From: Anaerolineae bacterium
GTDB taxonomy: Bacteria; Chloroflexota; Anaerolineae; Anaerolineales; Villigracilaceae
DNA: 64,000 bases
Direction of reading: 5' to 3'
NCBI GenBank assembly: GCA_021324435.1
Contig: JAJPIZ010000011.1
Coordinates: 1 to 64,000, forward strand
Shown: one piece after another, positions 11,578 to 64,000 of the stretch
Layout of the letters: each line of letters begins with the position of its first letter
Position numbering within the stretch: the stretch's first letter is position 1
The notes under the pieces: model-generated
The model's input: only the letters and a program-made list of their open reading frames with translations
Database searches by the model: none
What the model was told of the DNA's origin: nothing
Program-made: the position numbers and the translations under genes

Positions 11578-13395
11578 ATGCAACCCATACTCAAAATTGA
11601 TTTATCTACCGGCAAAACAGAACAATATAAAATTCCAGAAGAATGGGAACGGGCATTCCTGGGCGGCGCGTCGCTGGCGGCGCGGTTGTTGTATCCATAT
11701 CTCACGAAAGAACTCGATCCATTCTCGCCCGAAGCGCCCCTGCTTTTTATGAATGGGCCACTCACGGGCACCTCCGGCCCAACAGTGGGTCGCTTTGTTG
11801 TATGCGGTAAAAGCCCGGCTACTTTGCAATGGGCAGAATCAAATTGCGGCGGGTTCTGGGGACCTGAGCTTCGCTTTGCAGGATATGATGGTCTGTGGTT
11901 AACGGGGAAGGCTCAGGCGCCCGTCTATCTTTGGATTGACGATGGCCGCCTCGAGGTCCGGCCTGCGGCGGCCTTGTGGGGCAAAGATACATACGAGACT
12001 CAGGAACTTGTCAAACAGGAAATCAATCAAAAAGGAATCCACGTCGCGGTGATTGGTCCCGCGGCAGAAAATGGGATCCTGTTTGCTGGAATCTATTGCG
12101 ATCATGGACGGGCCGCGGGACGCACCGGACTCGGCGCGGTAATGGCTTCGAAGAACTTGAAGGCGATTGCCGTGCATGGATCGAATCAATTGCCGCTCGT
12201 TCACGCGGGACCGTATGCCGGGTTGCGCTCCGAATCCAATCGCGCGCTGAGGCAGGACAACGAAGCGCGCGTTTTGCACGAAGTGGGCACGGCGGGCGCC
12301 GCGGATTATTCGGAATATCTCGGCGCTTTGCCTGCCAGGTATTATCACCAGGGCGGATTTGGAAATGTGGATAAAGTGTCCGGCTCGACGATGGCCGAGA
12401 CGATTCTCGCGGGGCAGAGTGCGTGTCACGCTTGCGTGATCGCCTGTGGACGCGTTGTGCGACTCGAAGATGGAGCAAAACGCAAAGGTCCGGAATATGA
12501 AACGGTTGTTTCGTTTGGGCCGAACTTGTTGATTGATGATCTGGCCGAAGTTACGCGGCTTGGCGAGTTATGTGATCGTTATGGCATGGACACGATCAGC
12601 ACCGGCAACACGATTGGCTTGGCTTTCTATTTATTTGAAAAAGGAATCATTACAACAAAAGATACTGGTGGTCTTGAGCTCAATTGGGGAGACGCAGTGG
12701 CTGTGCGGCAATTGGTCAAGATGACGGCGCGGCGAGAGGGGATCGGTGAATGGATCGCGCAAGGCTCGCGGCGATTGGGCAAACATTTCGGCGTGGAAGA
12801 AGAAGCGGTGCAAGTCAATGGACTTGAAGTCGCGTATCATGATCCGCGCGGTGTTTCAGGCATGGCGCTTTCGTACGCTACCTCGCCGCGCGGCGCATGC
12901 CACAATCAGTCCGATTATTTCTTCGTGGATTGGGGGCACACCACGGCTGAACTTGGCATTGAGTATTTTTCGCGTCACGCCGACGCGGAGAAAGCCCCCA
13001 ATGTGGCGCGTCACCAGAACTGGCGAACGGTCTACAATTCCATGGTCATGTGTATTTTTGCGAATGTTGCGCCGCAGATGCAAGTGGACTTGATTAATGC
13101 CGCGTGCGGATACAACTGGACCATCGAGGATATGATGCGCGCCGGTGAGCGCGGCTGGACTATGAAGCGTGCGATCAATAATCGTATGGGTCTGACCGCC
13201 GCCAATGACAAACTGCCGAAGGCTCTGCTGGAACCATTGCCCACTGGCGGCACGGATGGATATGTCCCTGATATTCAAGGGATGCTCTATGCTTATTATG
13301 AAGCTCGCGGCTGGGATGAAAAGACAGGCTATCCGACCAGGGAAAAACTTGCGTCGCTTGGCCTGGAAGACGTCGCGAAGGATTTGTGGGCCTGA
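11578..13395 (+). CDS. Aldehyde ferredoxin oxidoreductase family (tungsten/molybdenum pterin) protein
   Basis: MQPILKIDLSTGKTEQYKIPEEWERAFLGGASLAARLLYPYL...; CHACVIACGR; ATG at 11578. Confidence 0.9.
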   Translation: MQPILKIDLSTGKTEQYKIPEEWERAFLGGASLAARLLYPYLTKELDPFSPEAPLLFMNGPLTGTSGPTVGRFVVCGKSPATLQWAESNCGGFWGPELRFAGYDGLWLTGKAQAPVYLWIDDGRLEVRPAAALWGKDTYETQELVKQEINQKGIHVAVIGPAAENGILFAGIYCDHGRAAGRTGLGAVMASKNLKAIAVHGSNQLPLVHAGPYAGLRSESNRALRQDNEARVLHEVGTAGAADYSEYLGALPARYYHQGGFGNVDKVSGSTMAETILAGQSACHACVIACGRVVRLEDGAKRKGPEYETVVSFGPNLLIDDLAEVTRLGELCDRYGMDTISTGNTIGLAFYLFEKGIITTKDTGGLELNWGDAVAVRQLVKMTARREGIGEWIAQGSRRLGKHFGVEEEAVQVNGLEVAYHDPRGVSGMALSYATSPRGACHNQSDYFFVDWGHTTAELGIEYFSRHADAEKAPNVARHQNWRTVYNSMVMCIFANVAPQMQVDLINAACGYNWTIEDMMRAGERGWTMKRAINNRMGLTAANDKLPKALLEPLPTGGTDGYVPDIQGMLYAYYEARGWDEKTGYPTREKLASLGLEDVAKDLWA

Positions 13396-13496
13396 CCGTT
13401 GACCATGCACCATGGACGATGAATGCAAAAATGGTCTATGGTCAATCTCGTCAATAGTCTGATTTTTTAAATGCAAAACGATGATCTAGAGGAAAT

Positions 13497-28987: not shown

Positions 28988-29418
28988 TCGGACCTCTCCC
29001 CTGATCCCTCCCCTAAAAGGGGAGGGGAATAGGGTGGTTGATTTGATAACTGTTTGCAAGCCGTCTTGATTTGTTCAAGAACTTTCGGAAGTTGATTCAA
29101 AATTTCTGCATTCTGAAATCTACTGACATGAAATCCCTGCGTTTTCAAAGCCAGTTCGCGATCCTGGTCTTCCTTTTCTTGAAGCTCGTGGATTTCACCA
29201 TCTACTTCGATGATGAGGTCGAGCTTGTGGAAATAAAAATCGACAATATAACCGTTAATGATTTGCTGCCTGCGAAAATGCCAGCCGTCCAGTCTGTTGG
29301 CGCGAATGTTTTGCCAGAGAAGATTTTCTGCGTCCGTCATCTTGTGGCGCATTTCTTTAGCGAGATTGACTTTCTCGCGCGTTACATACCGACCTCGGAC
29401 GATAAACTTTTGAGACAT
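28984..29418 (-). CDS. DUF559 (Vsr-like) endonuclease-domain protein
   Basis: AKEMRHKMTDAENLLWQNIRANRLDGWHFRRQQIINGYIVDFYFHKLDLIIEVDGEIHE; C-terminal SPPLLGEGSGERSE is repeat-encoded. Confidence 0.85.
   Translation of the reverse strand: MSQKFIVRGRYVTREKVNLAKEMRHKMTDAENLLWQNIRANRLDGWHFRRQQIINGYIVDFYFHKLDLIIEVDGEIHELQEKEDQDRELALKTQGFHVSRFQNAEILNQLPKVLEQIKTACKQLSNQPPYSPPLLGEGSGERSE
28993..29040. repeat. REP-like palindrome CCCTCCCCTAAAAGGGGAGGG plus tail, 3' side of DUF559 gene
   Basis: perfect stem 29006-29014/29018-29026; tail AATAGGGTGGTTG. Confidence 0.85.
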
Positions 29419-45524: not shown

Positions 45525-46139
45525 TTAGATTTCGTGCTTGAGCGCTTCCAACTGTCGGACCAGTTCCAAATCTTCCGGCAAGTCGAGGTCGAGGCCGAGC
45601 GATGGCAGGGTGACAATCTCCAGTCGCGCGCCGGCTTTCTTGGTGCGTTCGCAGTGACGCTTGAACGAGTTCTCGCCGAAATCGTATTCGATCAAATTGG
45701 CGGGGGAGAGCAGAAGCGCATTCGTCCCTTTTTGATGGCGGTCGGGCGCGATGACCACCACAGGCGGATCGGTGGCGTGCTCGATCAGCGTCAAAATATC
45801 GTGTTGAGAAAGAAGCGGCAAATCGGCGGGCAGGACGAGCACGCCGCGTGAAGCGTACACTTGTGCCACGACCGTCGCCCGCTTGAGCGCGGTATTCAGA
45901 TGCGGCGCGCCGTCTTCTTGAACGGTGCGCGCTCCGAGGTCCCGCGCGAGCGCCAGCGCGGAAGAATCGCGGCTCACGACGAGCACTTGTTCAACTTCCT
46001 TCAGGTCGCTCAATGTCTTGATTGTGCGTTCCAATAAAAGACGATTCAATTCCGCCCGTTCGTCTTCGGTCAACGCGCCGGCCAATCGTGACTTGCCGCG
46101 GCGCAATGGTTTCACAGGGACGATCGCCCAGAGTGTCAT
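45525..46139 (-). CDS. cofC: 2-phospho-L-lactate guanylyltransferase CofC/FbiD
   Basis: [48 protein letters not shown]. Confidence 0.9.
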
Positions 46140-47104
46140 GATGCAGTTCCGATAAAGTGTAGCACATCTTCGGCCAAACGTCGCCGATCTTTAACGTTCT
46201 TCATCAAGGTCTTCGTCACCAGTGTCCGCATGTTTAAACTCCGAATCTCCGCTTCAAGATGCGAATCGATTTTATCGAGCGCAAAGTCAGTCGCCAGTCC
46301 TTCGTATTGTTTTGCGACCGCCAGCGCGGATGGTTCGATGCCGAGTTCGCGATACATTTTCGCGGCGGGACCTTTGACAGCCTGCCCGCCTATGATGGGT
46401 GAGATGGCGACAACTTTCTTCGCTTCCATCTTTGACCTGAGGCCGGGTACCGCTAAAATGGGCGCGATGCTCACCCATGGATTCGACGGGCAAATGATGA
46501 TGGCATCTGCCGATTGAATCGCTTCGCGCGCGCCGGGCGCGGCTTCCGCTTTTTCGATTCCATTAAACCGAAAGCCTTTGACGCGCGGCTCGCATCTGCG
46601 ATGGACGAAATATTCCTGAAAGGCCAAATCGCCTTCATCCGTTTCGACGATGGTCCGAACAGGATTATCGCTCATCGGCAGGATCGTATGTTTAATTCCC
46701 CACGCTTTGCAAAAGTCGCGTGTGATCTCAGAAAGGCACTGGCCTTCCTTGATTCGCCGCGTGCGCTCGATGTGCGTGGCGAAATCCTGATCCCCGAGGC
46801 GGAACCAGTTTGGCCCGCCGAGTCTTTCGATATTTGAAATGGCTTGCCATGACTCGTTCGCGCGTCCCCAGCCCGTTTTCGGATTTGCGAGTCCCGCCAA
46901 TGTATAACAGACCGTGTCAAGGTCAGGGCAGATGTATAAGCCGAGATGCTCGAAGTCATCGCCGGTGTTGACGATGACGGTCAAATCTTCAGGAGGGAGG
47001 ATTTGGGCGAGTCCGTGCGCGAGTTTCGCACCGCCGACTCCGCCCGCGAGGGCAACGATCCGTCGGTGGACGATGGATGGTGGACGGTGAAAGTTAGATT
47101 TCAT
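46136..47104 (-). CDS. cofD: 2-phospho-L-lactate transferase CofD/FbiA
   Basis: [58 protein letters not shown]-terminal [15 protein letters not shown] is repeat-encoded. Confidence 0.93.
47064..47090. repeat. Degenerate TGGACGATGGATGG repeat at cofD start / 3' end of S23 gene
   Basis: GGTGGACGATGGATGGTGGACGGTG. Confidence 0.75.
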
Positions 47105-47504
47105 CGGTTTCGTAAATTGCCGACTCTTCTCTGATTAATTTATTAGAAGGTGAAAGCGCTTTGCGGAAGGAGTGGAGTTTCTTTGCTAGATTTTGCGCTA
47201 TTATGTCTGCTTTTTCGAGCAGAGACTCTTCAATCCTGAAATTGCGTCTCTTGATAATTCTTTGACAGGCAACGGTTTCGATCAAAGATCGAACTGCCAT
47301 TCCAAGGAAGCGATGTTGTTCAGCGTCGCTTTGTCCCGTAGAGCCTTCGGCAATGTTCAGGGCGACCGATGTGGCCGCGCGGGTAATCTGTGAATTCAAG
47401 TTGAATTTTTCGTTGTCGGGCAATTTGTTTGCAAGATCGTAGATTACATCAATATAGTCCAGTGACAATTTCCAAACATCGAGATGTTCAAATTTAAAGG
47501 ACAT
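47094..47504 (-). CDS. Four-helix-bundle / S23 (rRNA intervening-sequence-type) protein
   Basis: FEHLDVWKLSLDYIDVIYDLANKLPDNEKFNLNSQITRAATSVALNIAEGSTGQSDAEQHRFLGMAVRSLIETVACQRI. Confidence 0.88.
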   Translation of the reverse strand: MSFKFEHLDVWKLSLDYIDVIYDLANKLPDNEKFNLNSQITRAATSVALNIAEGSTGQSDAEQHRFLGMAVRSLIETVACQRIIKRRNFRIEESLLEKADIIAQNLAKKLHSFRKALSPSNKLIREESAIYETDEI

Positions 47505-47536
47505 TTCTTCTCCTTGACATCAACTTGCCGCGTGAA

Positions 47537-47565
47537 TCATGGTCAGCGGTCCACGGTCTGCTGTC
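47537..47565. repeat. Degenerate GGTCCACGGTC repeat upstream of the S23 gene
   Basis: ATCATGGTCAGCGGTCCACGGTCTGCTGTC. Confidence 0.65.
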
Positions 47566-48148
47566 AAAGCGTTTGAATCAAGCGATTAATTGGTTTCAAT
47601 TCCTTGGTTTTAGCCACATCATCCGCCTTACCAATAAAAATCATTGCCTGTGGCTCCCATGTTTCAGGCAGATTTAGCGCGGCGCGGGTTTCTTCCCTTG
47701 CATACAACGGCCAGCAAATCCAGTTGCCGCCAAGACCTTCAGCGTGCGCGGCCAGCAAAAGTTGCAGTCCTGCCGCGGCGACGGATTGAATCGCCATCGT
47801 CGTTTCTTCGGGCGTATCGGCGCGGACGGCGGTCGCGTCGCGGCATAAAAGGATCAACACAGGCGCTTCGTTGATGCGGCGAATGGAATTCGTCACGCGC
47901 TTCTCGATTTCAGATTCAGACGCGCCTTCGGCTTGCATGTCCGCGCGCATTTTGTTGGTCAATGCCTGGGCAAGACGCGTTCTTGCGTCTGGATTTTTTA
48001 TGATGACAAATCTCCATGGTTGAAGGTTGTGTGCAGAGGGGGCGAAGGTCGCGGTGGTGAGGATGCGTTCCATAACGGAATCCGGTATCGGGTCCGGTTT
48101 GAAGCGGCGGATGGAACGTCGCGAGCGCAGGAAGTTATGCGCGTCCAT
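47564..48148 (-). CDS. Nitroreductase family FMN protein, FbiB C-domain-like
   Basis: FLRSRRSIRRFKPDPIPDSVMERILTTATFAPSAHNLQPWRFVII. Confidence 0.85.
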   Translation of the reverse strand: MDAHNFLRSRRSIRRFKPDPIPDSVMERILTTATFAPSAHNLQPWRFVIIKNPDARTRLAQALTNKMRADMQAEGASESEIEKRVTNSIRRINEAPVLILLCRDATAVRADTPEETTMAIQSVAAAGLQLLLAAHAEGLGGNWICWPLYAREETRAALNLPETWEPQAMIFIGKADDVAKTKELKPINRLIQTL

Positions 48149-62370: not shown

Positions 62371-64000
62371 GTGTCTACCTCCACGACATTCCTCTCCCCG
62401 AAGCCAAGTCACGCCTCGAGGCCGCGCTGAAAGACGCAAATCTCTGGCGCGTGCTTGGAGTCGAATCGATTCCGCTCGATGAAAACGCGCTGGGCCGCGT
62501 CTTGGCCGAACCGATCTGGGCAAAAATTTCCTCGCCGCATTACCATGCCTCCGCCATGGACGGCTTTGCCGTCCGCGCAGAAGATACAAACGGCGCGCAA
62601 CCGTCAACGCCGCTCCAACTTCCTGTAATTGACTCTTCATCGTCCATTGTCCATCGTCCATCGTCCGCGCAATACGTTGACACCGGCGACCCTCTCCCCG
62701 AATGGGCGGACGCGGTGATTCCGATTGAGAATGTCGAATCGCTTGACGCCGACGGAAATATTTCGTCCATTGTCCGTGGTCCATCGTCTATCAGGATCCG
62801 CGCCGCCGTCGCGCCATGGAGCCATGTCCGCCCGATGGGAGAAGACATCGTTGCGACGCAACTTGTTTTGCCCGCAGGCCATGTCCTGCGTCCAGTTGAT
62901 TTGGGCGGGATTGCCGCGGCGGGACATGAGCAAATCAACGTGGCGCGCAAGCCGCGGGTCGCGATTTTGCCGACAGGCAGTGAACTCGTTCCGATTGGCT
63001 CCAAACTCAAAGCGGGTGACATCCTCGAATATAACTCGCTCGTCCTCGCCGCGCAGATTCGGTCCATGGGCGGCGAAGCGACTCGCTATCCGATCCTCAA
63101 AGATAATTTCGATTTGATTTGTGAGTGCGTCCAGGAAGCCGCGCAAGACCACGATTTGATTCTGCTCAACGCCGGTTCGTCTGCGGGCGCGGAAGATTTC
63201 TCTGCGAAGGTCGTGGAAAAACTGGGAACGCTTCTGGTTCACGGCGTTGCGGTTCGCCCGGGTCACCCGGTCATCATGGGGATGATAAATCGAAAATCGG
63301 AAATCGGAAATCGGAAATCGGAGAACGTGGCACATAACACTTGGAACCTGACACCGATAATAGGCGTCCCCGGCTACCCCGTCTCAGCCGCGCTGACGAT
63401 TGATATTTTTGTCGAGCCGATTCTTGCAAAATGGCTCGGACGCAGACCGAATGAACTATCTGTCGAGACGGCGCAATTGACGCGTAAGGTCAATTCACCT
63501 GCGGGCGATGAAGATTACATCCGTGTCGCGGTTGGCAGGGTCGGAGATAAACTTCTCGCCGCGCCGCTTTTGCGCGGAGCAGGCGTCATCACCTCGCTGG
63601 TTCAGGCCGACGGACTCGTCATCCTGCCGCCCGGTGTGCAGGGACTCGAGGCAGGCGAGAAGGTCAATGTTCATTTGTATCGAAGCAGAGCCGAACTCGA
63701 GCGAACAATTTTTTGCATTGGTTCCCATGATCTCACGCTCGATCTCATGGCGCAATTTCTTGCCGAGCATGATCGCCGCCTCGCATCCGCCAATGTTGGT
63801 TCTCAGGGCGGATTGGTCGCGCTTCGACGCGGGGAGGCTCATCTGGCGGGTTCGCATCTGCTCGATCCCGAAACGGGCGAATACAATATTTCCTATGTTC
63901 GCCAGTACATGCCGGAGATTCCCGTTAAAGTCGTGGCGTTGGTCAAACGTGATCAGGGGTTGTTGGTGAAACGCGGAAACCCAAAGGGAATCAAAACTTT
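62367..64000 (+). CDS. moeA: MoeA (copy 2) with C-terminal PBP/LysR-substrate-like domain, truncated by window end
   Basis: ATGA overlap with copy 1; manual codon-by-codon translation finds no stop to 64000; SSPHYHASAMDGFAVRAED; IIGVPGYPVSAALTIDIF; C-term IFCIGSHDLTLDLMAQFLAEHDRRLASANVGSQGGLVALRRGEAHLAGSHLLDPETGEYN; absent from the ORF track. Confidence 0.9.
   Translation, partial: MSVYLHDIPLPEAKSRLEAALKDANLWRVLGVESIPLDENALGRVLAEPIWAKISSPHYHASAMDGFAVRAEDTNGAQPSTPLQLPVIDSSSSIVHRPSSAQYVDTGDPLPEWADAVIPIENVESLDADGNISSIVRGPSSIRIRAAVAPWSHVRPMGEDIVATQLVLPAGHVLRPVDLGGIAAAGHEQINVARKPRVAILPTGSELVPIGSKLKAGDILEYNSLVLAAQIRSMGGEATRYPILKDNFDLICECVQEAAQDHDLILLNAGSSAGAEDFSAKVVEKLGTLLVHGVAVRPGHPVIMGMINRKSEIGNRKSENVAHNTWNLTPIIGVPGYPVSAALTIDIFVEPILAKWLGRRPNELSVETAQLTRKVNSPAGDEDYIRVAVGRVGDKLLAAPLLRGAGVITSLVQADGLVILPPGVQGLEAGEKVNVHLYRSRAELERTIFCIGSHDLTLDLMAQFLAEHDRRLASANVGSQGGLVALRRGEAHLAGSHLLDPETGEYNISYVRQYMPEIPVKVVALVKRDQGLLVKRGNPKGIKT
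62637..62668. repeat. (TCGTCCAT)n repeat inside moeA copy 2
   Basis: TCATCGTCCATTGTCCATCGTCCATCGTCCG; encodes SSSSIVHRPSS. Confidence 0.8.
62763..62792. repeat. Second TCGTCCATTGTCC-type repeat inside moeA copy 2
   Basis: TCGTCCATTGTCCGTGGTCCATCGTCTATC; encodes SSIVRGPSSI. Confidence 0.75.
63286..63352. repeat. (AAATCGG)n plus ACTTGGAAC repeat inside moeA copy 2
   Basis: ATAAATCGAAAATCGGAAATCGGAAATCGGAAATCGGAGAAC...CACTTGGAACCTGAC; encodes INRKSEIGNRKSENVAHNTWNLT. Confidence 0.85.

Follow-up and report, generated by a model that had tools for sequence, protein, structure and literature searches.

S23 genes between inverted heptanucleotide arrays: a probable relative of rRNA intervening sequences in the F420 operon of an Anaerolineae bacterium

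Intervening sequences (IVSs) of 23S rRNA genes (Salmonella/Leptospira/Coxiella type) consist of a lone S23-family open reading frame (ORF) between terminal inverted repeats and are patchily distributed, two traits that they share with the locus described here. In the Coxiella IVS, the repeats enclosing the S23 ORF form a 28-bp stem that is cut by RNase III in vitro (PMC4990558). As its proposal is relayed in PMC4990558, earlier work (Ralph and McClelland 1993) regarded the IVS as a mobile element whose ORF aids mobility. Intergenic tandem units of 7 nt are known separately, from cyanobacteria, Xanthomonas and Beggiatoaceae (GGGAATC, GGGGAYT, TAACTGA). Such heptanucleotide repeats often occur as inverted pairs in Xanthomonas (PMC4692102) and are scattered across phyla with no known vehicle, those of Beggiatoaceae being proposed translational binding sites (PMC4679880).

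Two further systems deserve comparison. The Avd protein of diversity-generating retroelements (DGRs) has the same four-helix bundle fold as S23. In REP/RAYT systems (REPtrons), a single protein gene is enclosed by inverted palindromic repeats, and solo copies of these repeats occur elsewhere in the genome, an arrangement in common with that of S23.

The S23 locus of the F420 operon

The window (the whole 64,000-nt stretch analysed, from an Anaerolineae bacterium) contains a co-directional row of npdG-like, cofE, PPOX-like, nitroreductase, S23, cofD and cofC genes (Table 1). A first-pass annotation had described the S23 gene as interrupting this F420 gene row between two repeats, the downstream one being read as the first residues of CofD. 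Both statements hold, since the protein matches PF05635 with 87.1 bits (cut-off 33.8), gene order and flanking arrays are as described, and the N-terminus of CofD is encoded by the 3' heptamer array. The gene cofD overlaps the 3' end of S23 by 11 nt. GGTGGACGATGGATGGTGGACGGTG (47065-47089) and ATGGTCAGCGGTCCACGGTCTGCTGTC (47539-47565) lie on either side of S23, which is the sole ORF between the arrays. These two arrays of GTCCAYN-type heptamers face each other and therefore form an inverted pair. Pairing between the window's own two arms is poor; at this site in relatives it is much better. The IVS layout, an S23 ORF between terminal inverted repeats, is thus present, weakly in the window copy and strongly in relatives.

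Table 1. Features of the window discussed in the text
Feature	Position	Strand	Remarks
Solo palindromic GTCCATG array	13390..13447	.	Without S23, between two genes
cofD	46136..47104	-	Start codon ATGAAATC inside S23 3' end; first 15 codons are cassette sequence
3' heptamer array	47065..47092	-	GTCCACC ATCCATC GTCCACC (- strand reading); abuts CofD codons homologous to IVALAGG
S23 (four-helix-bundle) gene	47094..47504	-	136 aa; PF05635, TIGR02436
5' heptamer array	47539..47565	+	GTCAGCG GTCCACG GTCTGCT; starts at nitroreductase stop codon
Nitroreductase-family gene	47564..48148	-	Upstream of cassette; stop codon is the left insertion edge
Two GTCCAYN arrays	62635..62792	+	Direct orientation, no S23; spacing about 90 bp; downstream of MoeA-like gene

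The AlphaFold2 model of the window protein (pLDDT 84) is a four-helix bundle with a TM of 0.80 and an rmsd of 1.3 to 2gsc, the structure of a Xanthomonas S23. The best structure matches are 2gsc and 2rld, followed by Avd (4dwl/8ube), so the resemblance to Avd put forward from the letters alone holds at the fold level. In profile comparisons, the window protein matches TIGR02436 (91, cut-off 24) and not the Avd model, which is scored weakly by another S23 of the same genome. The solved relatives 2gsc and 2rld contain five chains each, and the S23 pentamer forms a toroid (PMC4990558). A defence role, a known RNA family and a 23S rRNA location were considered and rejected: PADLOC returned no match, Rfam returned none at 46800-47900 of the window, and a search of S23 loci for conserved 23S motifs gave none beyond isolated inexact matches.

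In contrast to the 23S IVS, the window cassette sits between protein-coding genes (nitroreductase and cofD) and not inside a 23S rRNA gene, and its arms are built of tandem heptamers whose sequence varies from one S23 copy to another. With no 23S-embedded copy among the genes compared, kinship with the IVS is argued from the gene and layout that they have in common. Like the palindromes of REP/RAYT, the flanking repeats have dispersed solo copies, namely GTCC arrays without S23; however, S23 is not a Y1 transposase, the cassette encodes no transposase, and its repeat units are tandem heptamers. Unlike the DGR loci of Avd, the window cassette has no reverse transcriptase (RT), template or variable repeat, and no RVT_1 domain, hence no adjacent DGR RT, was found in this genome. 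Finally, the published heptanucleotide repeats are described in PMC4692102 and PMC4679880 without mention of S23, whereas here the repeats frame S23 genes. In this genome, one S23 gene (L012) lies between GGGAATC repeats; in the related genome G002, TAACTGA is repeated next to an S23 gene (L109). In the open-licence papers searched, we found S23 genes and heptamer arrays nowhere connected; an earlier report elsewhere is possible.

Our best explanation is that the S23 gene and its two flanking arrays probably make up one IVS-like cassette, a non-rRNA relative of the 23S rRNA IVS with the arrays as its ends. By analogy of gene and layout, we think that such cassettes may be the counterparts of these IVSs outside rRNA.

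Inverted arrays of period 7 flank S23 genes in many phyla

The flanks of 122 S23 genes were compared, 44 from this order (15 from this 3.1-Mb genome and 29 from related genomes) and 78 from many phyla. The latter are those with full flanks among 80 further genes, all in one large clade, from a search that covered a single genome for each species (Nitrospirota, Poribacteria, Bacteroidota, Planctomycetota, Verrucomicrobiota, Acidobacteriota, Patescibacteria and others); they are not fully independent, since several Flavobacterium loci share one site. An inverted-repeat score was obtained by reverse-complementing the downstream flank of each ORF and aligning it with the upstream flank. It averages 14.2 for the 44 genes and 7.4 for a control set of 181 non-S23 ORFs from this genome, with 37 of the 44 above the control 95% level (p=2e-19). 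The 78 genes score 14.2 with matched flanks, 8.0 with mismatched and 7.6 with shuffled ones. Since mismatched pairs score no better than shuffled ones, the heptamer differs from one S23 copy to the next.

The repeats have a period of 7. Self-match of the flanks of the 122 genes is 0.40-0.43 at shift 7 and 0.37-0.40 at shift 14, against about 0.27 or less at most other shifts; the 181 control ORFs are flat, also at about 0.27 or less. Twelve S23 loci on named cyanobacterial plasmids give 0.47 and 0.53 at shift 7. Most arms consist of 2-5 heptamer units, and the arrays stand tens of bases from the S23 start and stop. The co-localisation of S23 and repeats that had been put forward as a check is borne out: the density of period-7 arrays in this genome is about 22 times as high within 200 nt of S23 genes as elsewhere (16 in 6.0 kb versus 29 in 237 kb), and no arrays of period 5, 6, 9 or 11 were found near its S23 genes (about 240 kb sampled). 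For figures on the whole genome we relied on pattern searches and on sampled stretches, about 240 kb in total, that had been picked for their S23 genes. Matches to the strict pattern GTCCRYNGTCCRY number 60 in this genome, versus one for its reversed control, and these GTCCAYN matches often form head-to-head palindromes. Chance, or generally repeat-rich intergenic DNA, is rejected by the control ORFs, the shuffles and the absence of other periods near S23. Besides, S23 genes lie between co-directional genes in 86 of 120 cases versus 102 of 201 controls (p=3e-4). The association of S23 with repeats is confirmed and much more general than was supposed from the window.

Shared sites, heptamer classes and footprints of loss

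Motif similarity rises with S23 protein similarity, and the trend remains significant once pairs that share homologous flanking genes are excluded (r=0.24, 0 of 1000 permutations); poribacterial S23s that are about 74% identical can carry different heptamers. The heptamer thus partly follows the S23 subfamily and is not a rigid code. Of the 152 genomes of the family, 30 carry the window's own subfamily (35 matches in all). It occurs at the cofD junction in 16 genomes, at pstA/pstB in 9, at a glyS-like site in 2 and at other sites, the site names apart from cofD being our reading of the translations. GTC-type heptamers are present at all these sites, three or more of which are unrelated. They are mostly inverted, direct arrays being seen in G097 and at the glyS-like site, and the subfamily tree is cleanly partitioned according to site. 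One heptamer class at several sites, together with a tree ordered by site, indicates that gene and arrays moved together a few times and were then inherited in place. Movement of the gene plus its arrays is thus well supported. Neither a target-site duplication nor a transposase was found for the S23 cassette. Compensatory pairing of the arms was also considered. Matched arms have the better duplex energy over the whole set; inside the GTCC subfamily, however, arms taken from different loci pair as well as arms from a single locus, so that individual arm pairs are not conserved for pairing in their own right. Compensatory pairing is rejected on that ground, and we therefore claim a shared motif and not covariation.

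At the cofD site, the search for empty junctions gave a clear result: the cassette is absent from four of the six genomes of the genus, in three of which the nitroreductase-cofD gap is about 14 bp, and it is patchy in the family. S23 is not an ancestral, constant feature of the site. This patchiness, with arrays beside S23 far beyond chance, upholds the earlier view of the repeat-tied S23 gene as an inserted cassette. When G002 is compared with its sister G004, the cassette follows directly on the nitroreductase stop codon and stops just short of the K/I-V-A-L codons of CofD; no target duplication is seen between these two sequences. Cassette presence requires seven changes on the cofD tree, and the S23 genes at the site form a single clade, which makes repeated loss the simplest reading. 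In 14 of 15 intact genomes, cofD lacks a start codon downstream of the array and must start inside the S23 3' end, so that the array contributes extra N-terminal residues, for example HRPPSTVHRR; G129, counted among the 14, has weaker GTG/TTG codons in frame between S23 and the conserved CofD core. The losses have left footprints: the S23 body is gone in G034 and G029, which keep its tail and the array, and G015 keeps the array alone. In all three the array still begins CofD. Deletions leave such footprints because the cofD start codon had moved into the cassette. The nitroreductase/cofD junctions of two other genomes carry other repeats without S23, AACGTTNN palindromes in G006 (L066) and period-8 TTGTCTAC repeats in G019 (L067).

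Possible mechanism and competing explanations

In the proposed course of events, the cassette would end in arrays of about 3-5 copies of a 7-nt unit each, usually inverted. In this orientation its RNA can form a hairpin whose loop contains the S23 ORF, in the manner of the 23S IVS. It would move rarely to a new site, mostly a junction of co-directional genes, and then be inherited with repeated loss. The window cassette would have entered a stop/start overlap between the nitroreductase gene and cofD, which would then have captured a start codon inside S23, so that the S23 tail and the 3' array survived later deletions. Two solved relatives of S23 are pentamers; S23 itself may bind its own heptamers as RNA or DNA and so assist insertion or maintenance; it may also be what drives movement.

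Some observations speak against the cassette reading. Similar poribacterial S23s can differ in heptamer, arms of the GTCC subfamily pair no better within loci than between them, and neither a target-site duplication nor a transposase was found. Solo arrays are more numerous than those bearing S23, direct arrays occur in G097 and at the glyS-like site, and G025 (L304-L318) has 139 GTCCRYN pattern matches, in arrays mixing several related units, with no detectable S23 or GxxExxY gene. The earlier interpretation is supported in part: S23 is an inserted cassette tied to the repeats, and it may conceivably move or amplify them. GTCC arrays are commoner in genomes with the matching S23 subfamily (15-60 versus a median of 9, p=0.001, uncorrected for relatedness), but G025 is rich in them without a detectable S23, and RT counts do not track S23. 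A rival reading, which we find unlikely, is that S23 is a passenger that lands midway in pre-existing heptamer palindromes, which would arise and spread by slippage or other machinery, with a preference for hairpin loops as in rRNA helices 25 and 45. Arrays do abound without S23, in G025 and as solo palindromes of this genome, and two S23 copies of Nostoc PCC 7120 travel inside an ISL3-type element. Inverted arrays (mean score 14.6) likewise enclose GxxExxY (PF13366) nuclease genes. However, the GxxExxY arrays have a period of 9, and random landing would not give period 7 with S23 and period 9 with GxxExxY. Nor would a passenger be expected to keep one heptamer class at several unrelated sites, or to show heptamer similarity following S23 similarity.

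Still less probable, in our view, is that the arrays are sites through which a pentameric S23 controls the mRNA of its own or a neighbouring operon, with little or no mobility. A toroid (PMC4990558), the pentameric form of the two solved relatives, could contact several heptamers in register, the arrays stand within tens of bases of start and stop, S23 sits in operons with cofD starting inside it, and a comparable role has been proposed for the Beggiatoaceae repeats (PMC4679880). Such control is hard to reconcile with the patchy presence and seven changes on the cofD tree, and with sites that vary widely, common relics and no recurring neighbour function. An Avd-like S23, accessory to an RT in trans and spreading cassettes via cDNA, is very improbable and was rejected: the fold matches Avd of the DGR ribonucleoprotein and the Avd model gives a weak score for another S23 of the genome, but no RVT_1 domain was detected in the S23-rich G000 (15 copies) or G002 (22), and S23 and RT counts are uncorrelated (rho 0.12).

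The IVS-like cassette could belong to something larger. Tentatively, and with more doubt than belief, S23 cassettes may be widespread minimal mobile elements with heptanucleotide-array ends and a sole protein recognising its own heptamer. They would be the source of heptamers across bacterial phyla, rRNA IVSs would be the members that landed in rRNA, and period-9 GxxExxY cassettes would form a sister class. The finding joins three puzzles: stand-alone S23 genes, the origin of heptanucleotide repeats and the spread of rRNA intervening sequences. It predicts that S23 binds its own heptamer and that gene and arrays come and go together in strain pairs. For annotators, N-termini such as that of CofD given above are cassette sequence.

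The number of GxxExxY genes per genome follows that of S23 (rho 0.60), and the parallel argues either for a link between gene and repeat that is specific to each family or for a common way of moving. The GxxExxY/PDDEXK_3 loci (L115-L119, L201-L229) have period-9 units of the ATCCTGTNN and CACAGATGAA-like types, distinct from the period 7 of S23. They are a closer parallel to the S23 cassette than the DUF559 cassette to which it had been likened. That likeness is loose, as the window DUF559 gene has CCCTCTCC-type palindromes nearby and not heptamers. DUF559 genes (29056-29370 of the window; L111, L112) adjoin CCCTCTCCC...GGGAGAGGG palindromes, another repeat type. On Nostoc PCC 7120 plasmids (L234, L235), S23 and a CTCTGCC array lie inside an ISL3-type insertion sequence in two copies; defining mobile ends from these near-identical copies proved uninformative, both being within that element. 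A CRISPR survey lists the 23S rRNA IVP domain among associated proteins (PMC10910872). S23 genes beside cas genes may be inserted cassettes and not CRISPR components; in cyanobacterial plasmid CRISPR-cas operons (L231, L237, L236), they occur as cas6-S23-cas4 and cas10-S23-cmr3 with heptamer arrays alongside.
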